The position numbers and the translations under genes are program-made. The notes beneath the pieces are model-generated. The model was not told the DNA's origin and did no database searches. It worked only from the letters and a program-made list of their open reading frames with translations. Below, in pieces: positions 5,657-20,178 of a DNA stretch of 64,000 nt. This DNA is from Desulfovibrio sp. (lineage in GTDB: Bacteria; Desulfobacterota; Desulfovibrionia; Desulfovibrionales; Desulfovibrionaceae). Each line of letters opens with the position of its first letter. The first letter of the stretch is position 1. The stretch lies in contig JAQYWK010000005.1 in NCBI GenBank assembly GCA_030145055.1, forward strand, positions 124,001-188,000, read 5' to 3'.

Positions 5657-6648
5657 TAGTCTTTACCTCCGGCCCGGATGCGGGGATCGGCAAAGCCGTA
5701 TGCAACGTCAGCAAGTAAATTGCCCGCCAAGGTCAGAAGTGCGCCGAGAACGAGACTTCCCATTATTAATGAATAGTCGCGCGACATGACCGCATTATAA
5801 AAAAGCTGTCCCAGACCGGGGAGAGCGAAAATTGATTCAATGATAACACTGCCGCCGATAAGGCCGGGAATAGAAAGCCCAAGCAGAGTAATGACGGGCA
5901 AAAGTCCATTGCGAAAGGCGTGTTTGAACAGCACCTTATGCATGGGAAGCCCTTTAGCCTTGGCGGTTACAATATAATCCTGCCGCAAAACTTCCAGCAT
6001 GGATGAACGCATGAAGCGTGACATTCCTGCCAGACTTCCGAAGGTATAAACGAATATAGGGAGCGCGAGGTGGTGTGCTATATCGAGAACTTGACCCATA
6101 GGCGAAAGCAGGGCGTAATCTAACGAAGTAAGGCCGGATATGGGGAAAACAGGATAGTATATGCCCAGCCAGAGCATGAGCAAAAGCGCAAGCCAGAATC
6201 CCGGAACCGCAAATCCAATGAACACAAAGACTGTCATCCCCCTGTCGAACCAGCCGTCCTGTTTCCACGCCGAGTACATACCTATAGGTATAGCTATGAG
6301 TAGGGTCAGAAATAACGAAGCTATGTTCATGCCGAAAGTCAGAGGCAGACGCTCTTTAATGCGATCCCACACTGGCCTGCTGTCGCCGGACATGGAGCGA
6401 CCGAAATCGAAGCGGACCATGCGGGAAACCCAGTTGCCGTATTGAACATGCAAAGGCTTATCTAGCCCGTAAAGCTTTTCAAGCTTCTGGCGTGTTTCTA
6501 TTGTGGCAGTAGGGTTCATGGTTGTTTGCATATCAGTAGGTGAACCGGGCGCAAGGTGAATGACCCAGAAACTGATAACAGTGATGCCGATGAATACAAC
6601 ACCGACCCATGCGATTTTTGCCAAGATCTTTAATCCAATATCCAGCAT
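5656..6648 (-). CDS. Peptide/nickel-type ABC transporter permease, DppB/OppB family
   Basis: A 330-aa permease of the DppB/OppB family, partner of the DppC-type gene immediately downstream. It shows an N-terminal TM with the family pattern VISFWVIHLAPGSP, the LYGLDKPLHVQYGNW segment, five to six TM helices and the EAA loop KAKGLPMHKVLFKHAFRN near residue 228. A GAGGT ribosome binding site precedes the ATG at 6648. It is the first gene of the oppB-oppC-recN run. Confidence 0.9.
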   Translation of the reverse strand: MLDIGLKILAKIAWVGVVFIGITVISFWVIHLAPGSPTDMQTTMNPTATIETRQKLEKLYGLDKPLHVQYGNWVSRMVRFDFGRSMSGDSRPVWDRIKERLPLTFGMNIASLFLTLLIAIPIGMYSAWKQDGWFDRGMTVFVFIGFAVPGFWLALLLMLWLGIYYPVFPISGLTSLDYALLSPMGQVLDIAHHLALPIFVYTFGSLAGMSRFMRSSMLEVLRQDYIVTAKAKGLPMHKVLFKHAFRNGLLPVITLLGLSIPGLIGGSVIIESIFALPGLGQLFYNAVMSRDYSLIMGSLVLGALLTLAGNLLADVAYGFADPRIRAGGKD

Positions 6649-6805
6649 GATACCTCGTGAAAAAATAGAGAGTTAGACTCTTATTCGAGAATGACCCAAG
6701 ATAGTCTAAGTCCGCGAGTGAATCAACTGGTGAATCGAGTTGTGAATAGAATTTGTTCCAGCGTGGAAATATCAGAACAAAATAGAGAATAAGTGCCACA
6801 GAGTA

Positions 6806-6834
6806 TTGACAGCTTGGCCAGTACTCTGTAGTTA
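6806..6834 (+). promoter_or_regulatory. Putative promoter of tRNA-Ala
   Basis: A perfect TTGACA (6806-6811) is followed after 17 nt by TAGTTA (6829-6834), placing a start about 8 nt before the mature tRNA. An inverted repeat ACAGAGTA / TACTCTGT (6798-6805 / 6822-6829) overlaps the promoter. The -10 box is weak but position and spacing fit. Confidence 0.55.
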
Positions 6835-6848
6835 ATTCTCCACAGCGT

Positions 6849-6924
6849 GGGGCTGTAGCTCAGTTGGGAGAGCGATTGAATGGCATTCAATAGGCCGTGG
6901 GTTCGATTCCCTCCAGCTCCACCA
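6849..6924 (+). tRNA. tRNA-Ala (anticodon GGC)
   Basis: A complete 76-nt cloverleaf with encoded CCA. Acceptor arms are GGGGCTG and CAGCTCC (one G-U pair). The D arm is GCTCAGTTGGGAGAGC. The anticodon stem ATTGA/TCAAT encloses the loop ATGGCAT with anticodon GGC. The T arm contains GGTTCGATTCC-type sequence (GGGTTCGATTCCC). It decodes GCC/GCU alanine codons. Its 3' end marks the left border of the accessory region that follows, as expected for an integration hot spot. Confidence 0.97.
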
Positions 6925-7016
6925 CTTTTTGTGATTAAAACTAACCGATTAGGCGTAAAAGCTTAGTCGGTTTTTTTGTGTGGATAACCGCGTGGATAAC
7001 ATTTGGATAACATTTT
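6921..7016 (+). repeat. att-like direct repeat, copy A (next to tRNA-Ala)
   Basis: Copy A runs from the CCA end of the tRNA through the tRNA terminator to a block of three GGATAAC repeats. It matches copy B (14619-14704) over most of its length; the 33-nt core at 6972-7004 appears identical to 14670-14702. A shorter, more diverged copy C lies at 15602-15660. Direct repeats of a tRNA 3' flank are the mark of site-specific integration, so this is the likely left attachment site. The repeated GTGGATAAC units may be recombinase arm-type sites. Confidence 0.7.
6943..6977 (+). terminator. Terminator of tRNA-Ala
   Basis: A 12-bp stem (AACCGATTAGGC 6943-6954 with GCTTAGTCGGTT 6961-6972) and a six-base loop are followed by a T-run to 6977. 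A diverged copy of this segment occurs at about 14633-14674, within the att-like repeat. Confidence 0.85.
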
Positions 7017-7069
7017 GAAATTTTGGGTTGTTGATATTCAAATTCATTTAAGTCGAGATTAAAATAAAT

Positions 7070-7098
7070 AAGGCCAGCCCCACAACAGGACTGGCCTT
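7070..7098. repeat. Hairpin repeat, copy 1
   Basis: AAGGCCAG and CTGGCCTT form an 8-bp stem around a 13-nt loop, followed by a T-rich tail. A nearly identical copy in the same orientation lies at 15722-15750, followed by the same CTAATTTAAT sequence. It could act as a terminator. The pair brackets about 8.6 kb of accessory DNA. Confidence 0.75.
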
Positions 7099-7107
7099 TT
7101 CTAATTT

Positions 7108-7388
7108 AATTTTTTTAATTAATCAAAACGACACAGCTCTGCCAAAACTCACCGTCCGCAAAGGTTTCCACAAAGGGCTAGAACCATTGGCGGATACTTT
7201 TTTCTAACTCAATACTTTTTCTAATTCTTTTCCTTAGAGGCTGGTTTGTTGAGTTTTTCGGTTAGGTTTACTTCTTGATGGCGGAAAACAAAATTTTATA
7301 CAGTTGCTTTTATCTTGGTTTGTTATGATGGTGAGAAGATTTCTATAGTGTTAGTATCAAAAACAATTATGAAGAGATTAGTTATTTA
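7108..7388. other. Intergenic region upstream of the LuxR-type gene
   Basis: An AT-rich stretch with no gene. It contains an AAACTCACCG segment also present after the second hairpin repeat (about 15770), so the homology between the two repeat regions extends beyond the hairpin. It presumably holds the promoter of the regulator. Confidence 0.4.
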
Positions 7389-8492
7389 ATGATAAAGAAA
7401 AAATCGCAGCAGGTAAGTGGGGAAGCTATCTCAGAGGTACTTCTTCAATTGTATGATATGGATCACGGGGTTGATTTTTTTGAGCAGGTTTTGCTTTTGA
7501 TGCAGGACCATGTTCCGTTTTTGGTTTCCGGCTATTCTGTTATCGATGTTAGAGCTAAAGCGTTAGATCTGAAAATGCTTCGGGATCAAAAAGGAATTAA
7601 TGTCTCCAATCTATCTGAGCTGGAAATGTATGTGCTCAGTCATCCGCTGCGTGACGTTTGTTATTATAATAATAGAGGTCCGGTAGTGGGTACTATAGAT
7701 TTGTTGCCGGAGAATGAATGGAAAAAGACACCTCTTTATAATGAAGTTCACCGGAAACTTGGTTTGGTTCACGATACCAGTATGCGTTTTTACATGGGGA
7801 GCCAGTGTGTGAGTTTCGCTTTTTGCGATACAATGCCACTTGCACAAGAATATTATCAATTTTTGAATCTCATAGCACCGCATCTTGCGCCCGCATACAA
7901 GTGCTTAAAGCTTCGAAGGAATGGGAGGTTGGAGAATCTTCCTGATAATGTCGTGATGATATCTGATAGCGGTCATCTTGAGGAAATTTCTTTTTCTGCC
8001 GCAGCTCTTCTGGATAAATATTACCCTATAAAAAAACTGGGTACAAAACACCTTCCAGATGATGTTTGGCGTTGGTTTCGTTGTGAAGCGGGAAAAGGCG
8101 AAAGGGGACAAGCACTCGTCGTCCGCCTTTCAGAAAGCTTACTTTCGCTTGGTTTGCTTCGAACCCCTAACGGATATTTGATAATTCTCGAAGAATATGT
8201 CGTGAAAGACCCTAGGAATATGCTTTTAAAGATGGGTCTAACGAAACGCGAATCGGAAGTGATCCTTTGGGTCTCTCAAGGAAAACAAAACCGTCAGGTG
8301 GCAGACCTTTTAGGGATTAGTACTGGAACTGTCCGTAAGCATATGGAACATATTTTTAGTAAGTTGAAGTGTGAAACACGCGGAGCAGCATCTGAGATTG
8401 TTTTGCGAGCTCTTTCTGAAAGGTCTTCTAAAGTACTTTCTGTTCAGTGTGTTACATGTACAAAAAAAATGCACTTATTGCGCCTCGCCTGA
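7389..8492 (+). CDS. LuxR-family transcriptional regulator
   Basis: A 367-aa regulator. The C-terminal LuxR helix-turn-helix is clear at about residues 278-340: LTKRESEVILWVSQGKQN, then VADLLGISTGTVRKHMEHIF. The N-terminal 270 residues match no sensor domain I can name; a GAF- or PAS-like ligand domain is possible. A short tail after the HTH contains a CVTC pair. It is the first gene of the island and reads toward the exported phosphoesterase, so it is a candidate local regulator. Its ligand is unknown. Confidence 0.85.
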   Translation: MIKKKSQQVSGEAISEVLLQLYDMDHGVDFFEQVLLLMQDHVPFLVSGYSVIDVRAKALDLKMLRDQKGINVSNLSELEMYVLSHPLRDVCYYNNRGPVVGTIDLLPENEWKKTPLYNEVHRKLGLVHDTSMRFYMGSQCVSFAFCDTMPLAQEYYQFLNLIAPHLAPAYKCLKLRRNGRLENLPDNVVMISDSGHLEEISFSAAALLDKYYPIKKLGTKHLPDDVWRWFRCEAGKGERGQALVVRLSESLLSLGLLRTPNGYLIILEEYVVKDPRNMLLKMGLTKRESEVILWVSQGKQNRQVADLLGISTGTVRKHMEHIFSKLKCETRGAASEIVLRALSERSSKVLSVQCVTCTKKMHLLRLA

Positions 8493-8705
8493 GCCTATTC
8501 TCAAAAATACGTAGATTGGCGTATATACACCCATATCGAACCTCAGTAGATGAATACTCCTTTAGAGTATGTGAATACGTGTGGGTCATTTTGTGTAAAG
8601 CCCTCCTTCCTACAAATCCAGTCGATGCGGTTCTCCCGCGGCTAATAGTTGAAATATAGAACTATTTTTACACCCACGAATTCTTATAATGAGAGGTCGG
8701 TTTCT

Positions 8706-10088
8706 ATGAAGTCATCTACAGATATTTATAATGCAGCAAAAAAAACAGAACCTAAGGATGTGTCTCGTCGCAATTTTATGAAATTTAGTGCAACAACAGC
8801 TGCCGTGCTAAGCCTCGCCCCTGTTTGCCTACTTACTTCCTGTTATCAAAACGATGAAGGTCCTGATCCATTTAATAATGGTACTGACGAACGAAATTTA
8901 ATTGTTGTTGCAAGTGATTTTCATATGGGTGCTGACTTAGACTATGCAGAAATCAAAGCGAATTTAATTCCTCTTCAGCATTTTTTTGAACGGATCGAAA
9001 CATCAGCTAATGTTAAAGAACTAGTTATTAATGGTGACTTGCTTGATGAATGGTTTGTTCCGGCAACTGTAGATACTTATCAAGGGTATGATCAGTTTGA
9101 TTTTGTTGAACGTATAGCGGCAGCAAATAAAGGTGTATTTGATGCCCTTAATAGGATTATTTTTGCCGGAAAAATTACAGTAACTTACGTACCAGGAAAT
9201 CACGACTTAACGATTACAGCTGCAAACGTTGAAAATGTTTTACCTGGGATAGTTCAGGTTCGTGATACTGGACTGTTGGGCCTAGGAACATACTCACCAG
9301 CTGGTTCTCCAAAAGTTGCGATTGAGCATGGTCATCGCTATAATTTCTTCTGCGCACCAGATCCTATTTCGAATCAAGTTGCCGCGCCAGGAACAATACT
9401 GCCTCCAGGGTATTTCTTTACAAGAATCGGAGCATTGCACGTAGTGCAAAAGTGCAAGAAAGGAGCCGATGTTGTACTTACGGTCACAGATCCTCTAACT
9501 ACTGTAAGTCAGAATTTACTATTTAGATATTGGGAGCAATGGAAATGGTCGTTAGGCATATTTCCCATAAATAATCTTTTTAGCGACAATATTATTGTGA
9601 CAAACATTAACGGATTTACCGCAACATATTCTGTTAATGACCTGCTTCCTTCTCAACCCGGTGGGGTAGGGCCAATTTCGGTGAATCTTTATTCTGGAGT
9701 TCAGGATACCTGGGCTGCAAGGTGTACTGCTAATAATGTTCCCGTAGCACTTGATACTGGTAACGCTATTGATAAAGTTGCTTCGGCTGAAGAAACGGAT
9801 CGTATGTCAATCGTTCAGTATTTTACGAACGCCAGTTCCGATAAAAGAATTGTTGTTTTTGGGCATACTCACGTGGCTACAATGTTTTCTTCTACAAATC
9901 TTACAGGACAAAAAACAATCTATGTAAATTCAGGGACATGGATTGATAGTAATCCTAATAGTACAACGACTAATTTTGTTGTTATAACACCTCAGAATTC
10001 TGAAGAATCATCACAAACAGCTGTAGTTTTATACAATTTTGAAGGTGAATACGTGAGAGAAATGTCCAGAGATTCAGTGCGTATTTAG
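8706..10088 (+). CDS. Tat-exported metallophosphoesterase
   Basis: A 460-aa calcineurin-like phosphoesterase. I chose the ATG at 8706 (GAGAGG ribosome binding site) because it places the twin-arginine signal SRRNFMKF at residues 20-27, followed by a hydrophobic stretch and LLTSC, a possible lipobox. All metal-binding motifs are visible: SDFHMG near residue 76, NGDLLDE near 115, PGNHD near 166, GHRYN near 216 and FGHTH near 388. The enzyme would act folded in the periplasm, hydrolysing phosphoesters of unknown type. A decayed copy of its Tat signal region lies at 15952. Confidence 0.85.
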   Translation: MKSSTDIYNAAKKTEPKDVSRRNFMKFSATTAAVLSLAPVCLLTSCYQNDEGPDPFNNGTDERNLIVVASDFHMGADLDYAEIKANLIPLQHFFERIETSANVKELVINGDLLDEWFVPATVDTYQGYDQFDFVERIAAANKGVFDALNRIIFAGKITVTYVPGNHDLTITAANVENVLPGIVQVRDTGLLGLGTYSPAGSPKVAIEHGHRYNFFCAPDPISNQVAAPGTILPPGYFFTRIGALHVVQKCKKGADVVLTVTDPLTTVSQNLLFRYWEQWKWSLGIFPINNLFSDNIIVTNINGFTATYSVNDLLPSQPGGVGPISVNLYSGVQDTWAARCTANNVPVALDTGNAIDKVASAEETDRMSIVQYFTNASSDKRIVVFGHTHVATMFSSTNLTGQKTIYVNSGTWIDSNPNSTTTNFVVITPQNSEESSQTAVVLYNFEGEYVREMSRDSVRI

Positions 10089-10192
10089 TTCATAAGATTT
10101 CAATAAATCATTTGTATTTAGAAGGTTCGAAGTGTTGCTATGAATATAATTACGTTGATGACTAATCTGCGATAATTTAAGAATGATTCAAA

Positions 10193-10714
10193 ACTCACCT
10201 CTCAAAAAGTACAGGAATTGTCCCGCTCGCGATTCATCGTAGCTCTTTTGACTGCACGAATTGACCACCCAATGCCTAAGCCTTTTTGCCGGGGCAACCC
10301 TGACCGCCGGTGCGCCTAAATTCATATATAAGACGAAGCTGTTCTCGAAGCCGGAAGACACCGCTGGCTTAATACGGGATATGAATGAATTCCAACCGGA
10401 TATTATTTCAGGCTATGCAGGAGTTCTTCACCAACTCGCATTGGCACAGCTTGATGGACGCTTAAATATAAAACCGAAAAGAATATAATCGTCCGGGGAA
10501 GCTCTCTCGGACCAGATGCGGCAGACCGTTGATAGGGCATTTAACCTTGATGTGGTGAATCTTTACGCATGTTCGGAGTCCATACTTCTAGGCATCCAAA
10601 AAGGTGCTCAAGATCCGTTCCTTTTCTTTAACGATTGGCATCACGTTGAAGTTGTCGATTCAATTGAAATGAATATAAAGACATGGAAATTTAAACTCAT
10701 TATTCCATATGTTT
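10193..10714 (+). pseudogene. Relic of a PaaK-like adenylate-forming ligase
   Basis: A broken fragment of the phenylacetate-CoA ligase/coenzyme F390 synthetase family. The readable part includes FQPDIISGYAGVLHQLA, then an in-frame TAA at 10486, then SSGEALSDQMRQTVDRAF, NLYACSES and HHVEVVD, which follow the family order (P-D-x-x-x-G-Y, SGE-x-L, Y-x-x-SE). A frameshift near 10260-10290 separates the upstream piece SRFIVALLTARID. The N-terminal P-loop and C-terminal domains are missing. It cannot make a working enzyme. Confidence 0.7.
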
Positions 10715-10741
10715 AGCTTAACATGGGGGGTGAATATATTT

Positions 10742-12232
10742 ATGAAGTTCTTCAAAAAATGCATAAGTTTTGGTTTTATTCTTTTGAATATTTTACTGGT
10801 TTTATGTTTATCAGGGTGTTTGTTTGGTTCGTCCAATGGGGATGAATCACTAAGCGTAGAGAATATTAATTTGATATTCGTAGTGAGTTCGGATTTGGCT
10901 TACAATGGCGCTGGCGACATTAATCCAGACACTGCAAATCTTACTGGTCAAGGGTTGCAGCGCGCGCTCCGCATGGGCTCGTACCTGAAAAGTCATGTGC
11001 TGGGAAAAGAAAACGTAACAAGTATTTACGCTCTCTCACCGATGACTCATTTGCAAACCGTAAATAACTACCCAGATATGACCGCCATAGGATCAATACA
11101 GCATTTTGCTCTTTTAAATCGGCATACTGTAGCTATCCCGCCTGCTGTTGGATATTCATCCTATACCGCTTACAGCTACCCCATTAAAGTTTCATATGGA
11201 GACGGTTCTGTGCCTAGTGGCGTTGTGGTCCCTGCTGATTATTGCCCTGATTGTATTGGGTTGGATTTCAACGATATGAAAGATAATAACGTTGGTATCG
11301 CAACGGGTATTATCTATGAAAACAATCCTGGTTTTTATGTTTTTTCTGCGCCATGGGAGACTACCAGCGTCATGATGGATAAGATCAATCGGTATCATGG
11401 ACTTGCTCTGGATATACCGAAGAATTATATCGGTCCAAACCTTGTTTATGTAATTACTATTTTTCCTGATGGAAATTCACGGTTGATTACCTATGATAGT
11501 AAGATCAATCCGCCTTCCACATATCCTGAACTACCATCAACGGTTGTGAAAGCTCCATGTACATACTCGCAGCAGTCCTATTCCAAAATTTCACTGAAAG
11601 CAGGTGATCCCGGTATTACTGTTCCTGCGAATATTAATAAAAGCGAGACCGTGTACATTGTCAGGCATGCAGAAGCGCATCCAGATCCGGCACCTGCTTT
11701 TGAAAACGGCAACTTTGTAGGGGCAGGGCAATGGCGTGCACTGGATCTTTCCAATGCTCTTTCCGGAAAAATAAGTCCCGACATTGTTTATTCCTGCGAT
11801 CCCGCACAGTGGTATTCAACAGCGGCTATCAATCCATTAGATTATATCAACGTATCCTACGTCAGGCCATCATTAACGGTATGGCCTTATGTTATAGCCA
11901 ATAACTTGCCTTATCGTTTGGTTTCCAGCTTTTTACTTATGGGTTCGAATCAGGGAAAGCTGGCTAGTGATTTTTTCTTTACAGGCAATACGTTTTCTAC
12001 TCAGACTGTCTTGCTCGCGTGGGAATCAACTCGGATTAAGCCTATAATAAATGAGCTTCTTAAAAGCTATGGTGCAAGCGGCGCTAATCTTCTCGATGAG
12101 AGCTGGCCTTCCACAGATTACAACACCATCTGGACTGTTACGATTGATGCGAGCGGTAATCTAACGGTGGAAAACGCGCTGTGTGAAGGTATTGATTCTG
12201 ATAAGCTGCCGGAGCAGGCCCCTCAATTTTAA
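10742..12232 (+). CDS. Lipoprotein with two histidine-phosphatase-like domains
   Basis: A 496-aa exported lipoprotein. The ATG at 10742 follows a strong GGGGGG ribosome binding site and opens a signal with lipobox LSGC at about residues 25-28. The C-terminal half contains the histidine phosphatase motif YIVRHAEAHP and GAGQWRALDLSNAL. The N-terminal half has the same layout (IFVVSSDLAY, then TGQGLQRALRMGSYL), but the catalytic RH is replaced by SS. So it is a tandem of a degenerate and an apparently intact domain, although the second catalytic His region is hard to place. Substrate unknown. A tail fragment of a paralogue survives at 18543. Confidence 0.7.
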   Translation: MKFFKKCISFGFILLNILLVLCLSGCLFGSSNGDESLSVENINLIFVVSSDLAYNGAGDINPDTANLTGQGLQRALRMGSYLKSHVLGKENVTSIYALSPMTHLQTVNNYPDMTAIGSIQHFALLNRHTVAIPPAVGYSSYTAYSYPIKVSYGDGSVPSGVVVPADYCPDCIGLDFNDMKDNNVGIATGIIYENNPGFYVFSAPWETTSVMMDKINRYHGLALDIPKNYIGPNLVYVITIFPDGNSRLITYDSKINPPSTYPELPSTVVKAPCTYSQQSYSKISLKAGDPGITVPANINKSETVYIVRHAEAHPDPAPAFENGNFVGAGQWRALDLSNALSGKISPDIVYSCDPAQWYSTAAINPLDYINVSYVRPSLTVWPYVIANNLPYRLVSSFLLMGSNQGKLASDFFFTGNTFSTQTVLLAWESTRIKPIINELLKSYGASGANLLDESWPSTDYNTIWTVTIDASGNLTVENALCEGIDSDKLPEQAPQF

Positions 12233-12256
12233 CTTTCCCGATGTAATGACTGGCGG

Positions 12257-13723
12257 TTATACTACTGCGTTTTGCCATGCGGCTTCTTTGAACCATGCCG
12301 CGCTCAGTTTGGGTGTGCGCTTTTGAGTTTTGAAATCTACGTGCACCAAACCGAAACGAGTTCCGAACCCGCCGGTCCATTCCAAATTATCAAATGCGCT
12401 CCATACGAAGTTTCCTTTTATAGGGATGCCTTCGGAGGTTGCCCTTTGTAGTTGGCCCATTGCGCTACGTAAATACATGACCCGATCGGCATCGAAAACC
12501 TCACCGTTAGAGGATACTTCATCGCTGGCTGCGCATCCGTTTTCAGTTATGTAGATTTCCTTCGGATTCCAAATAGAGTGGGTCAACCGTGGCGCCCAGT
12601 AAAGAACTTCAGGGGAAAACGTATGCCACGGAGATTGCATCTTGGGGTGCGATACGTTCATCGGCACTTCTTTGTATCCTGATTCATCCTCTGAAGCCAT
12701 TACGTACATTTTTGGGATGTATACATTGATGCCAACGAAATCTACCGGAGAGGCTATGTTCTTCAAATCTTCATCTGTGAAATCCGGTGCATTTTTACCC
12801 GCTTCTTTTAAGTACGAATCACTGTATTTCCCCGTCAGCATTACGTCCAAGAAGCGAGCGTTGAAATGGCGGGTAGCTGTTTCTGCTGCTTTGACATGCT
12901 CCGGCGTGTCGATTGCTGGAACCCCGCAAAACATTACTTCAGCAGGACCTACTTTAGTGTCTTTTTTACCTTTTGCTCGGATGGCTTTCACTGCCATGCC
13001 GTGGGCGAGGACGGCGTTATGTGCAACTTGATTTAGTTTCTTGGGTTCTAGTTTGAGGCCCGGAGCGAGTTCGATTTGAACAGACTTGCCTTGAACTATC
13101 ATTTCTATCCCACGATGGCCCATATCTACGAAATTCTGAAACTCGTTTAGCGTGAAAAAGTGTTTTACTCTGTCACTCAGTTTTTCCGCCATGAAACCTG
13201 CATATTCCGCGAAAGCTTTAGACGTTTCGCGTGTTTGCCAGCCTCCCTTGTCCTGTAATGCTTGAGGAAGATCCCAGTGGTAAAGTGTAGCGTAGGGTTT
13301 GATGCCAGCATCAAGTAATTCATCCACGAGACGGCTATAGAAATCCAGCCCTTTTAAGTTTGGCTGCCCTGTACCGTTGGGGAATATTCGAGGCCATGAG
13401 ATGGAAAATCTGTACCCTTTTGCACCCATATTCTTCATTAAATGTACATCTTCTTTATAACGTAGGTAATGGTCAATGGCGACGTCGCCAGTGTCATTGT
13501 TTTTCATTTTTCCAGGCGTGTGGGCGTACGTATCCCATATAGATTTGCCTTTGCCTTCCGCATCGGGTGAGCCTTCTATCTGGTAGGACGCTGTAGCCAG
13601 CCCCCAGCAAAAACCATCTGGGAATTTCGGCAATATGGGGGCTGATGTTGTGAAGCCGCTACCATTCTGTTGGGCCTTGTTTATATTTGGAATTTTTTTT
13701 TTGGAAGCGGAACCAGTAGGCAT
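12257..13723 (-). CDS. Beta-glucosidase, glycoside hydrolase family 1
   Basis: A 488-aa GH1 enzyme that would hydrolyse beta-glucosides or related glycosides in the cytoplasm. Visible are the N-terminal FPDGFCWGLATASYQIEG family signature, the acid/base segment TLNEFQ near residue 192 (canonical TFNEP) and the nucleophile segment YITENGCA near residue 395. The family-typical WSAFDNLEWTGGF near the C-terminus binds sugar. There is no signal peptide; the first 30 residues are a variable extension. It is convergent with the phosphatase lipoprotein. Within the island it is the only clearly cytosolic enzyme. Confidence 0.93.
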   Translation of the reverse strand: MPTGSASKKKIPNINKAQQNGSGFTTSAPILPKFPDGFCWGLATASYQIEGSPDAEGKGKSIWDTYAHTPGKMKNNDTGDVAIDHYLRYKEDVHLMKNMGAKGYRFSISWPRIFPNGTGQPNLKGLDFYSRLVDELLDAGIKPYATLYHWDLPQALQDKGGWQTRETSKAFAEYAGFMAEKLSDRVKHFFTLNEFQNFVDMGHRGIEMIVQGKSVQIELAPGLKLEPKKLNQVAHNAVLAHGMAVKAIRAKGKKDTKVGPAEVMFCGVPAIDTPEHVKAAETATRHFNARFLDVMLTGKYSDSYLKEAGKNAPDFTDEDLKNIASPVDFVGINVYIPKMYVMASEDESGYKEVPMNVSHPKMQSPWHTFSPEVLYWAPRLTHSIWNPKEIYITENGCAASDEVSSNGEVFDADRVMYLRSAMGQLQRATSEGIPIKGNFVWSAFDNLEWTGGFGTRFGLVHVDFKTQKRTPKLSAAWFKEAAWQNAVV

Positions 13724-13809
13724 GACTTTTTCCTAATTTAAAATTTGTGCTTATAGATATTCTTTAAAGCTCGTATATGTCCAATATTATTTACCATCAG
13801 GTAGTTGGA

Positions 13810-14589
13810 TTAGATCGTTTTAATTCTCCAAAACCTAACAGCCTTCTTAAGTCCATCAGGAGCAAGGTGGGCATAGCGTTGAGTCATTTTAAAGCTACTG
13901 TGCCCCATGAGCTTCTTAACGGTGTATAGGTCCGTTCCATGCTGGACATGCCATGATGCAAAGGTATGCCGTAGTGAATAGAAACAGACTTTTTGTCTGG
14001 GGTCTGCCACTTTTTCATTGAACATTTCAGCCGCAATTCTGCGAAATGTCTTTGAGACTTGTACAAGTTTACCCCCATCAATGGGGCTGAATAACCGTTC
14101 TGCGCTTTAGCCTCTCTCGTACTTGATTAATGAAAAAGGCTTTACGGTTAACTCCTGCTTTAGGATCTCGAATATAAATATCCTCATTCTCAAAATCGAT
14201 GTCCTGCCATGTAAGGGATGCAATTTCTCCGAATCGTAAGCCGCAGTATAGAGCTAGAATCGCCATGTCATGGGGCAGAGGGGATCGGATTTGTAATTCT
14301 TCAAGAAGCTCGTTCGCTTCATTTTTCGCTTGGCTTCTACTCGCTTATCTTTCAGGGATACAATCTTTTCGCCTTTCTTATACTGAAGTTTGATATCAGC
14401 AAGTTCAAGCCCAACTTTTTCTTCAGTCTAGCCTTCAGAAATCCAGCCGAGTACATGTTTGTATCGCTTGCCGCCTAGCTGGTAACGTATGCCGTAAAGT
14501 CGGTCGAATTTAGCGCCATGCTTTCGGCTTTCATGTTGATGAAATCGAACGCCTTTGAATTTTTGGGACGGCTGCCAGTTATAATCCAT
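13810..14589 (-). pseudogene. Decayed tyrosine recombinase (integrase)
   Basis: A phage/island-type integrase broken in several places. The N-terminal arm-binding part begins at ATG 14589 (FKGVRFHQHES, then KFDRLYGIRYQLGGKRYKHVLGW) and hits an in-frame TAG where a Trp is expected. After a central deletion, the catalytic region resumes with ALYCGLRFGEIASLTWQDI (first catalytic Arg) at about 14255, shifts frame near 14080, then ends with LRHTFASWHVQHG and LMGHSS-KMTQRYAHL, which hold the HxxR and Tyr motifs. It sits directly beside att-like copy B, as expected for the enzyme that inserted this island. Confidence 0.85.
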
Positions 14590-14618
14590 CTGAAAACTCT
14601 TGTTTTTAAAAAAAATAC

Positions 14619-14704
14619 ACCATTTTTTGTGAATAAAACTAATCTATTAGACATAAAGGTTTAGTCAGTTTTTTGTGTGGATAACCGCGTGGATAACATT
14701 TTAA
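14619..14704 (+). repeat. att-like direct repeat, copy B
   Basis: A diverged copy of the tRNA-Ala downstream segment in the same orientation as copy A, including a degraded version of the tRNA terminator and an identical 33-nt block with two GTGGATAAC units (14670-14702). It lies 30 nt from the integrase start and is the likely right attachment site of the first inserted unit. Confidence 0.7.
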
Positions 14705-14882
14705 TTTTTAGTCGCTTTTAGAAAAAGCTAGACGGCTTGACTGATTATAGCTTTTATTGTGTGTCGTAATGGCGAGAATCGTCGAAGCATCACATGGTTA
14801 AGAGAGTTTTATCAAAATGGTAGTATGGTAAAAGTTAATCGTAGACTTGTCTCTATCAAGAATGAATTCCCTAGGAGTAAGC

Positions 14883-15554
14883 ATGTTTGGATTTTTCAAA
14901 ATAAAAAAGCAAGTTGAATATCCGATTGTGAACATTGTTGTAGCGAATCAAGGGGCAGATGGAATGCTTGAGAAGGTCATGAGGGAAGTTTCAGAGCAAA
15001 ACATGATCGTCGCAATTGCTCTTGTGACTCTAAATGTGTGTCATATTGATGTGCAAAATTTACATAAGAATAAAGAAACAAGGTGTCTTAGTTCAAACAC
15101 TAATCATGACATATTGATGTTGACCTTGTTTTACTACTACTTAGAATTACAAGAAAAAAGCATGATCGGAGAGTACGACGAATATGATTATAGATTTGAT
15201 GACTATGATGATTATTTAGAGCATGAGGAGAAGATTCGAGAGCTTTTAATACAGCCAAGGCATTTTGTTTTGAATTTATATTACAAGTACTACGACAAGG
15301 AAGGGGTGACAAACTTTTTGCGGCGCAACTCTTCGTTTATTTTTAATAATAAAGTGCCTCATCAAGATGAGTTTTGTCAAAGATTGCGAATGTGCTATGG
15401 TATGGATTGCTTTTTCGATAGTCCAGATTTGTTGGGTCTAAAAAAAGATTTGATGTTGGTGGCCTTGTCGAACATTCATTATACAACTGTTGCAACGGCA
15501 TACATCGGAATTATGGACAAAGTTTTTGAGCAGTTTGATTATTTTTATGAGTAG
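14883..15554 (+). CDS. Hypothetical 223-aa protein between att-like repeats
   Basis: I do not recognise this protein. The ATG at 14883 has an AGGAG ribosome binding site 5 nt upstream. It has no signal peptide and no clear TM helix. It is rich in Tyr, Asp and Glu (a YDEYDYRFDDYDDYLEHEE stretch near residue 100), which gives a very acidic centre. The sequence is AT-rich compared with the core genes. It is the only gene between att-like copies B and C, so it may be a separate small acquired cassette. Confidence 0.6.
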   Translation: MFGFFKIKKQVEYPIVNIVVANQGADGMLEKVMREVSEQNMIVAIALVTLNVCHIDVQNLHKNKETRCLSSNTNHDILMLTLFYYYLELQEKSMIGEYDEYDYRFDDYDDYLEHEEKIRELLIQPRHFVLNLYYKYYDKEGVTNFLRRNSSFIFNNKVPHQDEFCQRLRMCYGMDCFFDSPDLLGLKKDLMLVALSNIHYTTVATAYIGIMDKVFEQFDYFYE

Positions 15555-15601
15555 CTTTGAATCAGGCGGATTACTTCAAAAATATAGTTTTTCCCTTTGA
15601 T

Positions 15602-15660
15602 TTATCATTTTTTAAATAAAACTGATTGTTAGCCGCTTTTTGTGTGGTAAGGATGTGGAT
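15602..15660 (+). repeat. att-like direct repeat, copy C (degenerate)
   Basis: ATAAAACTGATTGTTAGCCG, then CTTTTTGTGTGG and GGATGTGGATGATCTTTT, align with copies A and B but lack the terminator hairpin centre. The order repeat then hairpin (15722) matches copy A then hairpin (7070), supporting a common origin of the two blocks. Confidence 0.5.
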
Positions 15661-15721
15661 GATCTTTTAAATTATAGATTGTTTATTTTAAAGTTCAGTT
15701 TTATGTATTTTTCAAGTCATA

Positions 15722-15750
15722 AAGGCCAGCCCCATAACAGGACTGGCCTT
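15722..15750. repeat. Hairpin repeat, copy 2
   Basis: AAGGCCAG / CTGGCCTT stem with the loop CCCCATAACAGGA. It differs from copy 1 (7070-7098) by a single base in the loop by eye, in the same orientation. Confidence 0.75.
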
Positions 15751-15951
15751 CACTAATTTAATCGTAACAAACTCACCGCACGCACCTTCGCATACTCTTG
15801 AACATGAAAATATATACCCGCCGCCACTTTCGTTGATTGTTTTCTCGCTCAAGAAAATAATCAAAAATAGCTTCGTGTCGACTCTTCTAAATTTACCTAA
15901 AAACAGTATTCTTGTTATTTATGTAGTAATTTACATAGAGTCTGGTTAGCA

Positions 15952-16032
15952 TCAACTCGCGATTTTATGAAGTTTAGTGAAACAACTGCTACTATACTAA
16001 ATTTAGCCCCAGAGGACTTATGGTACATATGA
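15952..16032 (+). pseudogene. Relic of a Tat signal region from a phosphoesterase paralogue
   Basis: The frame STRDFMKFSETTATILNLAP matches SRRNFMKFSATTAAVLSLAP of the metallophosphoesterase at 8763-8823, with about 45 of 61 bases identical, then stops. The second arginine of the pair has drifted and no start codon remains. The relic runs directly into the ATG of the alpha/beta hydrolase at 16020, so it is what is left of a duplicated phosphoesterase gene. Confidence 0.75.
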
Positions 16033-17066
16033 TTAATCACTGGCGTTTGTTATGTTGGAGTGTATTTTGTCCGTTAATGATATTGATGTTAATCATCTGT
16101 ATGTCGCAAGGCGCAAAGGCCATGAATAAAGATCAATCTTACGTAGACAAGATTTTAACTGAACCTGTTTATGATAGCGAAGGTTTTGTCGATTACACTT
16201 ATGAAGGGCATACCTATAAATTATGGTACGGCAGAATTGGCTCTGGCAGCGCGCCACCTGCGTTGGTTCTGCACGGCGGCCCTGGGGGTAATCATCACAA
16301 TCTCGTAGCATTTCAAGCATTGAGTGATGAACGCCCTGTAATATTTTATGATCAACTGGGATGCGGAAAATCAGAGCGTCCGGATAATCCGGCCTTGTGG
16401 ATTGCGGAACGATATTTTGATGAGGTGAAAGCGGTTCGGGATGGCCTGGGCTTGAAGAATTATCATTTGGTTGGTCATTCATGGGGAACCGCTCAGGCTG
16501 TTGGATTTGCCGCTAAACATCCCGCTGGAATATTATCCATTTCTCTCCATAGCCCAATATTGAGTTTTCCTTATTATATCACTGATGTTGCCCCGGCACT
16601 TAAGCAGGGCCTGAGCTGTCTGAATGGAAAAGGCGGACAAGTGATAGATGATTATGAGTTGAGGGGGGTAGGAACAAGGAGTGACTACGACGAAGCTTGC
16701 ATGGAGTTTACTAAGAAATATGTTACGCACACCTGGCCATTACCTGAGGCAATGAAGAAATTGGCTACCGCACGAAATTCCGCAATTCACGACACTATGG
16801 TTGCCAGTGGTTCGGAATTGAATGTACTGGGAAATATAAAAACGGTTGACGTAACTTTGCAATTGTCCAAGTTGAATATTCCTATTCTTGTGACTTGTGG
16901 AAGCGACGATTTGTGTACGCCAGCCTATACTAAATGGCAGTCAGGATTTGCCAAGAATCCTCAGTACTACGTCATACAGGGAAGCGCCCACATGACCCCC
17001 GTGGACAATCCGTTGGAGCTCCTCGGGCGGCAACGGGTTTTTTTGCGAGAAGTGGAAAACTTGTAG
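16020..17066 (+). CDS. Exported alpha/beta hydrolase, proline iminopeptidase-like (S33)
   Basis: A 348-aa enzyme with an N-terminal signal peptide (hydrophobic MILMLIICMSQGAKA, cleavage near residue 35). The fold markers are LVLHGGPGGNHHN (oxyanion HGGPG), FYDQLGCGKSERP, the nucleophile elbow GHSWGTAQ and the C-terminal acid and histidine regions CGSDDLCTP and GSAHMTP. This is the prolyl aminopeptidase/proline iminopeptidase branch, which removes N-terminal proline or hydrolyses small amides and esters. An AGAGGA ribosome binding site precedes the start. It appears to have replaced the body of the decayed phosphoesterase copy just upstream. Confidence 0.85.
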   Translation: MVHMINHWRLLCWSVFCPLMILMLIICMSQGAKAMNKDQSYVDKILTEPVYDSEGFVDYTYEGHTYKLWYGRIGSGSAPPALVLHGGPGGNHHNLVAFQALSDERPVIFYDQLGCGKSERPDNPALWIAERYFDEVKAVRDGLGLKNYHLVGHSWGTAQAVGFAAKHPAGILSISLHSPILSFPYYITDVAPALKQGLSCLNGKGGQVIDDYELRGVGTRSDYDEACMEFTKKYVTHTWPLPEAMKKLATARNSAIHDTMVASGSELNVLGNIKTVDVTLQLSKLNIPILVTCGSDDLCTPAYTKWQSGFAKNPQYYVIQGSAHMTPVDNPLELLGRQRVFLREVENL

Positions 17067-17201
17067 AGCAACGGCATGCATCCGTTATGGATAATAAAAT
17101 TTTATTATGATTGTATTTAGAAGTGTATCTCTTTAATCTTCCTCATAATGTTTTTTGTTTGATTAAGGCCTAAATTAACTTTTACCCTGAGGGCGTGAGC
17201 T

Positions 17202-18446
17202 ATGATAAACAGTTTCCGTATAGTTGCATCAGTCTTTTTATTTATGGTTTTACTTTCCGTTTCAACCGTATCTACTGCAGCCGCAAAAATATCTATTCCT
17301 GACGATTGTCCATGTAAAGGGTCTATTACAAATCTTATTGATGCCTATCAGAACGATAAAGTTTTTAAGGTGCATATTGATGAAGCATTCAAAAATATGC
17401 AGCCCGTCCCGGAAGGGTACAGGAAAGGAGGGAATCCCTGGATCGGAAAGTCCTTTGCCGACCTGATTCCATTTTTTGTGGAGTGGAGTTCATTTCTACC
17501 GGAAGCAAAGGGCAGTGAAGATAACGCACTTAAATATATCGAACAGATGGATCTGTTTGCGTATAAAAATCCTTTTGGAAGGGTGGCTTTTCAAACTTCG
17601 CCGGGAGTTGAGATCTTTAACCGTTTTGCGACTGAACGCGGTGAATTTCTATCCAGCAAGGCTTCGACAAAAAAAGTAGCCGAATGGCTTGCTGATCCCC
17701 GCATTGAAAAAGAAGAGTACGTCCTGCCTGATTCCACAGTCGCTGACGGTGGGTTTAAATCTTACAATGAATTTTTTTCTCGTAAGTTTAAAGATATCAA
17801 TGCCGTCCGTCCGCAGACTATGCCGGATCGGGATTATATCATTTCCTCGCCGACCGATGCTACTGTGAATTCCATCCCTGCAAAAATTGTAGACGGAACC
17901 ACTAAGTTCAGGACCAAAGGTACTCAGGAACTGAATATTAAAGAGTTATTGGAAGGATCACGATATTGGAAGAAGTTTGTAGGTGGCACGGCGCTGTCTT
18001 GCGTTCTTATGCCTAATACTTACCATTATTACCATGCTCCAGTCGGCGGTCAGGTTATTGAAACCCGCCTTGTGGATGGAGCCTTGGTGGGTATGGAAGA
18101 GTTTGTTAAATTTGCTCCGGCTGATGGCAATGTAGGGGCTCCCGGAGCCAGTTTCGGTGCGTTTGAAAGCTATGCGCGTGGTTATTTTGTCATTGATACC
18201 GGAAAATACGGTCTAGTAGGAGTTATTCCGGTAGGGCTTAGCACCGTTGGGTCAGTTGTGTTCGAAGACAAGTTTCTCAACGCGGACGGTCCTGTAGCGA
18301 TCAAGCGCGGTGATGAACTGGGACATTTCCTTTATGGAGGGTCTCTGGTCATTTTGGTTTTTGAACCTGGAAAATATAGTTCCGATGCGATTAAGGTTCG
18401 TTTGGGGAATCAGATCGGTATATTTGATACTAGCTCAAACAAATAG
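17202..18446 (+). CDS. Exported phosphatidylserine decarboxylase-like protein
   Basis: A 414-aa protein with a signal peptide (residues 1-28). The PSD family core is clear: YNEFFSRKFKD, then ISSPTDATV, LMPNTYHYYHAPVGGQV and the C-terminal YGGSLVILVF. The Gly-Ser of this last motif is where PSD enzymes cleave themselves to form the pyruvoyl cofactor. PSDs convert phosphatidylserine to phosphatidylethanolamine. Known bacterial housekeeping PSDs work at the cytoplasmic membrane face without a cleaved signal, so an exported member is unusual and its substrate is uncertain. A strong terminator follows. Confidence 0.85.
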   Translation: MINSFRIVASVFLFMVLLSVSTVSTAAAKISIPDDCPCKGSITNLIDAYQNDKVFKVHIDEAFKNMQPVPEGYRKGGNPWIGKSFADLIPFFVEWSSFLPEAKGSEDNALKYIEQMDLFAYKNPFGRVAFQTSPGVEIFNRFATERGEFLSSKASTKKVAEWLADPRIEKEEYVLPDSTVADGGFKSYNEFFSRKFKDINAVRPQTMPDRDYIISSPTDATVNSIPAKIVDGTTKFRTKGTQELNIKELLEGSRYWKKFVGGTALSCVLMPNTYHYYHAPVGGQVIETRLVDGALVGMEEFVKFAPADGNVGAPGASFGAFESYARGYFVIDTGKYGLVGVIPVGLSTVGSVVFEDKFLNADGPVAIKRGDELGHFLYGGSLVILVFEPGKYSSDAIKVRLGNQIGIFDTSSNK

Positions 18447-18480
18447 TGCATAATAAATTATAAATAAATATAGTATGTAG

Positions 18481-18514
18481 GACCGGAAACAATATTGTTT
18501 CCGGTCTTTCTTTT
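18481..18514 (+). terminator. Terminator after the decarboxylase-like gene
   Basis: GACCGGAAACAAT and its exact complement form a 13-bp perfect stem (18481-18506), followed by a T-rich tail. Confidence 0.85.
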
Positions 18515-18542
18515 CGTGTAATTTTTTTGAATATTTTCTTGA

Positions 18543-18605
18543 TGGGCTTATGTTGTAGCCAATAATTTGCCTTATCCCCTCCTTGAAAACTGGCAAGAGT
18601 ACTGA
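18543..18605 (+). pseudogene. Relic of a histidine-phosphatase lipoprotein paralogue
   Basis: The frame WAYVVANNLPYPLLENWQEY then a stop. Its first 33 bases match 11882-11914 in the histidine-phosphatase lipoprotein at 30 positions (WPYVIANNLPY). Nothing upstream in this frame continues the homology. It is a surviving piece of a second copy of that gene. Confidence 0.7.
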
Positions 18606-18792
18606 CACATATTCCGTTCCGGCAATGCCAACTTGACCTGATCTGAATTGTCCGATCTCTAATACTTCATCTTTTGCAATGGCTTTTTGAATTGAGCAAG
18701 AAACATCTTGGCTTATAGTAAAGGTATCCATTTTGACGAGTTCAATGAGCTTTTCATAACCGATAGTCTGCTGTTTCAGCTTATTTCCATCC
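18600..18792 (-). pseudogene. Possible relic of a Fic-family N-terminal region
   Basis: On the minus strand a frame reads FVWDGNKLKQQTIGYEKLIE, later EIGQFRSGQVGIAGTEYV, and loses sense afterwards. The G-x-F/Y-R-x-G-x-V-x-I-x-G-T pattern resembles the start of Fic/DOC AMPylase-type proteins. The HPFxxGNGR catalytic motif is absent, and the frame begins inside the thiC terminator. It is likely a fragment; family assignment is tentative. Confidence 0.35.
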
Positions 18793-18795
18793 CAA

Positions 18796-18830
18796 ACAAA
18801 AAACCCCGACAGACATAATGTCCGCCGGGG
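18796..18830 (-). terminator. Terminator of the thiamine operon
   Basis: On the minus strand a 12-bp stem (CCCCGGCGGACA with TGTCTGTCGGGG, two G-U pairs) and a 3-nt loop are followed by TTTTTTG. It lies about 45 nt beyond the thiC stop. Confidence 0.9.
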
Positions 18831-18873
18831 CAATCTAATTCCTAATATTCCAAATAACTAAAATCTACAAAAA

Positions 18874-20178
18874 CTAATCATCAAGCTGAATATCCTTACC
18901 AGCAAGAACACGATTCATATTTCTAACAGCACACATTTTACCACACATGGAACAGGAATCTTCGTGCTCTGGCATGGAGGACTCACGATATTCGCGTGGC
19001 TTCACCGGGTCCATAGCAAGGTCAAACATGCCGTTCCAGTCTAGGGCCGCGCGTGCTTTACTCATTTTATCATCCCAATCTCTCGCGCCGGGGTGTCCCT
19101 TTGCAACGTCCGCCGCGTGAGCCGCGATGCGTGTTGCGATGATCCCTTCTTTCATATCATCAAGTGTAGGCAAACGGAGATGCTCAGCAGGTGTTACGTA
19201 GCATAGGAAATCAGCTCCGTTCATTGCTGCAATAGCGCCACCGATAGCGGCTGTGATGTGGTCATACCCAGGGGCAACGTCTGTTACCAGCGGTCCAAGT
19301 ACGTAGAATGGTGCGCCGTGGCAGAGACGTTTTTCCATCATCATGTTACCAGCAATTTCGTTCATAGCCATGTGACCCGGGCCTTCGATCATGACCTGTA
19401 CGTTGCGTTCCCATGCGCGCAGGGTCAGTTCGCCAAGTACGATGAGTTCTTCAACCTGACAAGCGTCAGTTGCATCATGCAAACAACCGGGACGGCAACC
19501 GTCACCAAGGCTAAGAGTTACGTCATGCTCTTCGCAGATATCTAGAAGACGATCGTAATGTTCGTAGAATGGGTTTTCAGCTTTGTTGAGTTCCATCCAT
19601 GTGAAGAGCAGTGATCCGCCTCGGGATACGATGTTTGTGAGTCTGCCGCCGGCTTTAACTTTTTCAGCAGTGTGCTGGTTCAGTCCGCAATGGATGGTCA
19701 GGAAATCTACTCCGTCATCTACGTGTTTCTGAACAACATCAAAAAATTCGTCTACGGTGATGTCCTGTAGGTTTTTATCGTAGAAACCGACCGCATCATA
19801 CATAGGAACAGTACCGATCATAGCTGGTGATATTTCAATCAAGCGTTTGCGGAATTCCTGTGTTTTACCGTAACAGCTGAGGTCCATGATAGCTTCCGCT
19901 TTCATATCAAGAGCCATCTGTACTTTGACAAGTTCCGGCTCGATGTCGCTACAATCTTTGGAAATACCAAGGTTCACATTGATCTTGGTGGACATGCCTT
20001 CGCCGACCCCTTCAGGGTCGATGTTGGTGTGCTTTTTGTTGCAAGGGATAATTACTGTTCCCTTTGCCATACGTACCATGAGATCTTCGATGCGAACGTT
20101 TTCTTTGCGAGCAACGATTTCCATCTGTGGTGTGACGATGCCTTTGCGGGCTGCGTCCATTTGAGTAGTGTATTTCAT
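18874..20178 (-). CDS. thiC: Phosphomethylpyrimidine synthase ThiC
   Basis: ThiC is a radical-SAM enzyme that turns aminoimidazole ribotide into the HMP pyrimidine of thiamine. The 434-aa protein is the short bacterial/archaeal form. The [4Fe-4S] motif is CSMCGKMC near residue 407. Also visible are [10 protein letters not shown] (about 226), [11 protein letters not shown] (about 264) and [15 protein letters not shown] (about 293). It is the last gene of the thiamine operon, 24 nt after thiE. Confidence 0.97.

Follow-up and report, generated by a model that had tools for sequence, protein, structure and literature searches.

Results

Two look-alike sets of elements between a tRNA-Ala gene and thiC

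We analysed a 64,000-nucleotide stretch of a Desulfovibrio sp. genome (the window; positions 124,001 to 188,000 of contig JAQYWK010000005.1, assembly GCA_030145055.1), in which positions 6920-18605, between a tRNA-Ala(GGC) gene and thiC, hold two look-alike blocks of elements that an earlier note on this DNA had read as the ancient duplication of one block, and that we propose below to be an island hotspot. Block 1 carries a terminator, a hairpin, a phosphoesterase gene and a lipoprotein-like gene; block 2 carries a decayed terminator, a hairpin and short relics of the same two genes. The features that bear on the repeat are listed here by position in the window, with the relatives that were compared given as genome handles (G000 is the window's own genome):

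6849-6924, plus strand: tRNA-Ala(GGC) gene (ARAGORN), left border of the proposed hotspot; its last 47 nucleotides are the core repeated in relatives
6925-7011, plus strand: terminator 1 with TGGATAAC iterons at 6981, 6993 and 7004 (BLAST, folding, copies in relatives)
7064-7110, plus strand: hairpin repeat 1, a terminator-like stem (BLAST, folding, copies in relatives)
7111-7160, minus strand: weak relic of a recombinase 3' end behind hairpin 1 (7064-7160 against a G012 copy, 79% over 102 bp)
8706-10088, plus strand: Tat-signal metallophosphoesterase gene, open throughout (Pfam)
10742-12232, plus strand: lipoprotein-like gene with an invariant RHxEAHP motif, open throughout (alignment)
13820-14611, minus strand: tyrosine integrase relic (int-A), split over several frames (closest to the integrase of G012, at 91-95% in DNA)
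14618-14701, plus strand: terminator 2 with two TGGATAAC iterons and no tRNA core (BLAST, alignment to G012, folding)
15604-15664, plus strand: possible third, strongly diverged terminator/iteron copy (BLAST, alignment)
15722-15762, plus strand: hairpin repeat 2 (BLAST, folding, base comparison)
15765-15836, minus strand: C-terminal recombinase stub behind hairpin 2 (58% over 24 amino acids to the G014 stub)
15952-16012, plus strand: relic of the phosphoesterase Tat signal (BLAST, shuffles, base comparison)
18511-18537, plus strand: possible relic of the lipoprotein start, not safe (BLAST, shuffles)
18542-18576, plus strand: relic of the lipoprotein interior (BLAST, genome pattern search, shuffles)
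18874-20178, minus strand: thiC, right flank of the proposed hotspot (list of open reading frames (ORFs), comparison with relatives)

Comparing 6600-12300 with 13700-19000 by BLAST gave four significant matches: 6920-7004/14618-14701 (E 4e-25), which is the strongest repeat; 7001-7110/15653-15762 (E 4e-13); 8768-8801/15957-15990 in the Tat signal (E 1e-6); and 11881-11915/18542-18576 in the lipoprotein gene (E 3e-8). They are collinear and on one strand, as the earlier note had described, and when block 1 was compared with eight further 5.3-kb pieces of the window, nothing matched at E 0.01. Direct base comparison reproduced the note's individual points at their coordinates: the hairpin repeats are identical at 38 of 41 bases (7070-7110 and 15722-15762), the Tat relic and its source at 45 of 61 (15952-16012 and 8763-8823), and the lipoprotein relic and its source at 30 of 33 (18543-18575 and 11882-11914). 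The repeat thus stands, and its supposed start at the hairpin at 7070 does not, because the strongest repeat, which had gone unnoticed, precedes it; this repeat begins at 6920, inside the 3' end of the tRNA gene, and includes a run of 33 consecutive bases identical between terminators 1 and 2. Also overlooked had been the tRNA itself, the decayed integrase and the possible third terminator.

The two gene relics exceed what shuffled sequence yields. In a comparison of 7110-12300 with 15771-18610 on the plus strand, which excluded terminator and hairpin and used 500 dinucleotide shuffles of block 2, the Tat relic scored 44.6 bits and the lipoprotein relic 50.9 bits, and none of the 500 shuffles reached either score, contrary to the outcome that the earlier note had named as fatal to its claim, namely nothing beyond chance at these points. 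A fifth match (10768-10794/18511-18537, 31.9 bits) was equalled in three of the 500 and is not safe. Throughout the 3.9-Mb genome, the 35-base lipoprotein relic has a single other place at up to three mismatches, the lipoprotein gene itself, and a reversed control pattern has none. A whole-genome search with the Tat relic failed to list the phosphoesterase gene, probably because a longer exact seed word was needed; the best other place for this relic in the genome scored 33.7 bits, versus 44.6 for the phosphoesterase in the block comparison. Taken alone, the Tat relic appears less secure than the lipoprotein relic or the terminator.

Terminators, hairpins and recombinase stubs

The stem of terminator 1 (6925-6985) folds at -18.3 kcal/mol (z -4.05), and that of terminator 2 has decayed (-5.1 kcal/mol, z +0.87). 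The TGGATAAC iterons (6981-7011 and 14678-14697) lie behind the terminator and are slightly altered in several aligned copies of relatives; five of the seven plus-strand occurrences of TGGATAAC in the window fall in the two terminator copies. They could be integrase arm sites or DnaA-type sites, both of which are candidate roles, and they are near the DnaA-box consensus. The possible third terminator is just 54-60% identical to the other copies and falls under the cut-off (E 1e-3) of the repeat census described below.

Both hairpin stems of the window fold at z of about -3.9. In relatives, most copies of the hairpin adjoin the 3' end of a tyrosine recombinase stub that is read on the minus strand. 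When the 91-amino-acid stub of G014 was used as a query, eight of the 11 remaining hairpin copies matched it at the protein level with E <1e-5, the G008b copy gave a DNA match only (E 2e-5), and hairpin 1 and one G012 copy gave no match to this query; the stub itself reaches 23.6 bits with PF00589, whose cut-off is 27.1. Identity of the hairpin flank to that of G014 is 93-97% over 106-131 bp in the best copies of G013, G008 and G006, 77-84% in others and 69% behind hairpin 2, and the frames left open in the recombinase in G014, G013, G008 and G006 span only 27 to 91 amino acids. The idea that the hairpin is an ordinary genome-wide terminator found no support: the listed matches to 6840-7120 in the window's own genome (three of four) sit at this locus, and among the G012 matches (nine of ten listed) there are four hairpin matches, all within 20 kb at the array.

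A decayed integrase and a lost tRNA core

The integrase relic int-A lies just before terminator 2, on the same side of the terminator as the integrase of G012. Relative to G012, ~165-178 bp are missing between the start of the integrase and terminator 2, a segment that included the 47-bp core, and CACCA(C/T)TTTT stands at both ends of the gap. The deletion may have used this short repeat, and loss of the core would probably lock the array in place. The census (E 1e-3) found no second 47-bp core in the window, and at 14618 only CACCA and the terminator are left. The interval begins, as a tRNA-targeted island does, at the 3' end of a tRNA gene and has an integrase gene, the decayed int-A, near one border. 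The far border, which in such an island bears a direct repeat of the tRNA 3' end, lacks it in the window. As read from its sequence, the window is a decayed relative of a tRNA-targeted genomic island and not an intact one.

Open integrase ORFs of 385-399 amino acids adjoin downstream cores in G006, G001, G013 and G012. The one in G006 matches PF00589, a general family and the sole family match found for recombinases of the locus, and its two neighbours, which match DUF6088 and AbiEii, have close homologues in G001 and G012.

The tRNA-Ala locus in related genomes

We searched 58 genomes, that of the window included, with 6840-7120 and fetched the region from nine relatives. The query matched in 56 of the 58, mostly in its tRNA part, and its downstream parts were repeated in several genomes of the same genus. 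A census of repeats in oriented stretches of eight genomes, the window among them (cut-off E 1e-3), counted 16 copies of the 47-bp core (seven in tRNA genes and nine downstream, the latter located in G001, G006, G012 and G013), 12 terminators (two of them in the window) and 12 hairpins. All lie on the strand of the tRNA; none of the three elements was found on the opposite strand.

Opp genes stand to the left of the tRNA in G005, G006, G008, G011, G013 and G014, and also on contig C2 of G012. A close thiC lies on the far side, on the same contig, ~37 kb from the tRNA in G005 and ~82 kb in G008, and on the far side but on a second contig in G006; the other genomes of the genus that were searched for thiC (G012 to G016 were outside this search) have only a distant copy (44-45%) elsewhere. 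Elsewhere in the window's own genome, the thiC end recurs as two short fragments, of 27 and 32 amino acids (G000:C5:495819-496661).

The phosphoesterase has homologues in G014 (83%) and in G005 and G006 (70%). Gene order varies: G005 and G006 have lipoprotein, phosphoesterase and thiC in succession, and G014 has the phosphoesterase, then 10 kb, then a 51-bp phosphoesterase relic and the lipoprotein gene. This relic of G014's own (L032, 4279-4329) lies 10 kb behind the whole gene and directly before the lipoprotein gene. Homology between the window and G014 is restricted to single genes, 8688-10099 and 10647-12250 of the window. Among other cargo, the G006 island holds an AbiEii-type gene and the G012 array a GajB-like helicase gene (Gabija defence; L028, 12407-14335).

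Genes of the two blocks

The remaining features of the interval are these:

7158-7196, minus strand: 13-codon relic of an island gene (92%, E 1e-4 to 3e-4, to a G006 homologue)
7389-8492, plus strand: LuxR-type regulator with a GerE domain (Pfam)
12257-13723, minus strand: glycoside hydrolase family 1 (GH1) gene (Pfam)
14847-15554, plus strand: ORF of 235 amino acids (ORF list; no Pfam or PADLOC match)
16012-18523, plus strand: inserted pair, alpha/beta hydrolase and decarboxylase (contiguous in G005 contig C7 at 90.7%)
16020-17066, plus strand: alpha/beta hydrolase (Pfam)
17202-18446, plus strand: phosphatidylserine-decarboxylase-family gene, with its hairpin (Pfam)
18609-18818, minus strand: part of a Fic-domain gene, ~70 codons, right border of the proposed hotspot (comparison with relatives)

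The G006 homologue of the 13-codon relic has a DUF6088 (AbiEi-like) domain, and the relic covers part of what lies behind that domain. The 235-amino-acid ORF sits between terminator 2 and the possible third terminator, where no integrase adjoins and cores are absent. By eye, the intergenic stretch 10280-10660 resembles a relic of an adenylate-forming (CapK-like) gene, which we give as a candidate label.

The RHxEAHP motif of the lipoprotein-like gene is invariant in 11 of 11 aligned members, and by this motif the protein may be histidine-phosphatase-like. Three members gave no Pfam match up to E 1, no solved structural relative of the lipoprotein turned up to E 1, and its structure model is poor (mean pLDDT 53). 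The closest named relative (79%) comes from a Pseudodesulfovibrio metagenome-assembled genome (MAG), where the gene lies ~2.4 kb from a Fic gene, an arrangement that recalls the right end of the window; relatives at 52-58% occur in MAGs named Nitrospirae, Geobacter, Syntrophus and Desulfatibacillum, among others. Two relatives have the Fic-domain gene whole: in G006 it lies near thiC, and in G014 it stands at the far end of the stretch that was fetched.

The earlier note's inference that the middle of block 2 has been replaced is supported: 16012-18523 aligns as one stretch, at the identity given above, to 7254-4733 of G005 contig C7, and fits between the relics, starting where the Tat relic ends and stopping shortly before the lipoprotein relic. 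The four fetched loci with the decarboxylase (L071, L072, L073 and L077, in G005, G006, G012 and G013) have ~1.3-1.4 kb round the gene in common (E 1e-10), and beyond that region they share just one 118-bp and one 39-bp match. Because so little flank is shared, the hydrolase and decarboxylase look like moving cargo that landed between the stumps, and the decarboxylase-family gene looks like a much-moved single gene. Its surroundings at the four loci are unrelated, and in G006 it adjoins an integrase fragment and a Fic gene.

Relationship of the two blocks

Were the blocks a segmental duplication, each copy should be closer to its partner than to any other. Terminator 1 is 98% identical to a G012 copy, 94% to G006 and 88% to terminator 2; hairpin 2 shares 98% with a G012 copy, 95% with G006 and G013 and 93% with hairpin 1, all of these identities being taken over short stretches, with three of the 12 hairpin copies cut slightly out of register. 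The terminators and hairpins thus do not show the expected pairing, and the gene relics are too short to decide. Because the repeats recur in relatives and are closer to copies in other genomes, the matches at the start of the blocks count as recurrent components of island arrays and do not prove that one block was copied. These comparisons give no support to a recent in-place duplication and support either a stacking of related modules or an old duplication.

Discussion

The repeat in 6920-18605 is real, and its kind is already known. We interpret the interval as a small, worn tandem hotspot of island accretion behind tRNA-Ala(GGC), with thiC on the far side where seen; we regard this as probable, well short of certain. 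On this reading the locus is a place where related bacteria repeatedly gain and lose foreign genes. Elements with tyrosine recombinases would insert at the 3' end of the tRNA, and each insertion would rebuild the tRNA and leave further copies of core, terminator and iterons downstream, so that units would pile up one behind another on a single strand. Two or more related modules, each running from terminator, iterons and hairpin through recombinase stub to phosphoesterase and lipoprotein, would have been stacked here. The module at the tRNA would have retained its genes and a terminator that still folds, and the one at thiC would have lost its terminator stem and nearly all of the phosphoesterase and lipoprotein genes, the hydrolase-decarboxylase pair then entering between its two stumps. 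The integrase has decayed and a deletion would have removed the core between it and terminator 2, so that the array is probably locked in place. In this account the repeats, the tRNA, the decayed integrase, the restriction to a single strand, the recurrence in relatives, the presence of the pair in another setting and the broken stem of terminator 2 are observed; insertion by these recombinases, the sequence of the events and the lost mobility are inferred.

Several observations weigh against this interpretation. The G005 stretch holds only the core of the tRNA, and the 20-kb stretches of G003 and G011 hold the tRNA alone; since no further core, terminator or hairpin was seen in any of the three, occupation of the place does not require them. 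The tRNA-Ala regions fetched from G001 and G003 showed no adjacent Opp genes and may therefore represent another locus, and in G012 the tRNA (with its Opp genes) and the array are on different contigs. The best match of hairpin 1 is hairpin 2 (93%), with others up to 90%. Neither the LuxR-type regulator, the GH1 gene nor the 235-amino-acid ORF has a homologue among the ORFs of the compared hotspot stretches. No complete gene for the stub recombinase was found at the tRNA-Ala locus, and its full-length matches, among those listed, are elsewhere or in other genera and at most 57% identical. Finally, GC content in the interval is mostly 0.34-0.42, and because it rises to 0.475 in the GH1 part and is equally low outside, at ~1.5-3.5 and 23.5-26.5 kb, low GC is no clean evidence.

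The earlier note's ancient duplication of a single block is one possible history among others; what survives of that proposal is that collinear copies of a module are present and that the second has been gutted. In such a history the block of terminator, hairpin, phosphoesterase and lipoprotein would have doubled in place by unequal crossing-over, after which the second copy decayed and was invaded. The four matches in the same order and strand speak for it, as does the spacing of hairpin 1 ~60 bp behind terminator 1 and of hairpin 2 ~60 bp behind the possible third terminator, when the other seven terminator-hairpin distances are ~550 to 3400 bp. However, the second of these spacings is measured from a weak terminator copy (behind terminator 2 the distance is ~1000 bp), and both terminator 1 and hairpin 2 resemble copies of other genomes more than they resemble their partners; we consider doubling in place unlikely. 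Differential loss of an old duplicate, in which case the Tat relic should resemble the phosphoesterase of G005 and G006, found no support: the relic lacks their 3-bp insertion, which argues against their being retained halves of the duplicate, and resembles G014 and block 1. An old duplication may nevertheless have preceded the split of the species.

It is also conceivable, and we think rather unlikely, that no block was ever copied and that phosphoesterase and lipoprotein each came twice as separate single-gene cargo, their order being coincidental. The 10 kb between the two genes in G014, to which homology there is confined, the reverse order in G005 and G006, the extra relic just before the G014 lipoprotein gene and the decarboxylase as a single shared gene at four loci would all fit such arrivals, but terminator, hairpin, phosphoesterase and lipoprotein agree in order and strand in both blocks. 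Chance similarity or shared motifs, such as those of generic terminators and Tat signals, we rate as having next to no prospect. Tat signals do have motifs in common, and the Tat relic has a 79% match over 38 bp at a further place in the genome; against this stand the shuffles, the uniqueness of the lipoprotein relic in the genome apart from its gene, and the position of the listed own-genome matches to 6840-7120 at this locus and of the listed G012 hairpin matches at the array. For the lipoprotein relic and the terminator, chance is already refuted.

Judged by its layout, the window belongs, in decayed form, to a known kind of tandem island, represented by the Dehalococcoides ssrA islands and by the accretion of integrative conjugative or mobilizable elements (ICE, IME) and of the decayed elements called CIME. 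The work on Dehalococcoides describes many direct repeats of the RNA gene 3' end downstream of the gene, islands that in some cases lack integration genes and are called possible cis-mobilizable elements, a serine recombinase at the tmRNA and no duplicate islands within any strain (PMC3146451). Tandem islands behind an RNA gene with direct repeats of its 3' end are thus in common; unlike there, the recombinases here are tyrosine integrases at a tRNA-Ala, and a module is present as a whole copy and a relic. In the accretion model, a decayed element keeps its att sites, another inserts in an att site, and tandem neighbours are mostly decayed (PMC5704250). Decayed units and tandem neighbours at one site are likewise present here, whereas the array of the window has lost its far core, and no conjugation or mobilization gene was noticed, none having been searched for. 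The setting also resembles that of tycheposons, in which cargo and a tyrosine recombinase lie next to a tRNA gene (PMC10872708); the only family matched by the recombinases here is PF00589. Among the literature matches listed, no title concerns this locus.

Less usual, as far as we can judge, is a hairpin with a recombinase stub that lasts as a constant end beside varied genes. Rather than debris, this pair might be the functional end of very small mobile units that often hold a single gene, laid out as core, terminator, iterons, gene, hairpin and stub and moved in trans by a resident integrase, an idea that we hold to be very doubtful.

What the locus illustrates is that a repeat resembling a copied block of chromosome can arise when related mobile units stack up at a single tRNA. 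Related genomes offer a readable series of its states, whole, locked, gutted and refilled, and the conserved hairpin-plus-stub ends make it testable whether such arrays are debris or a store of small mobile units.

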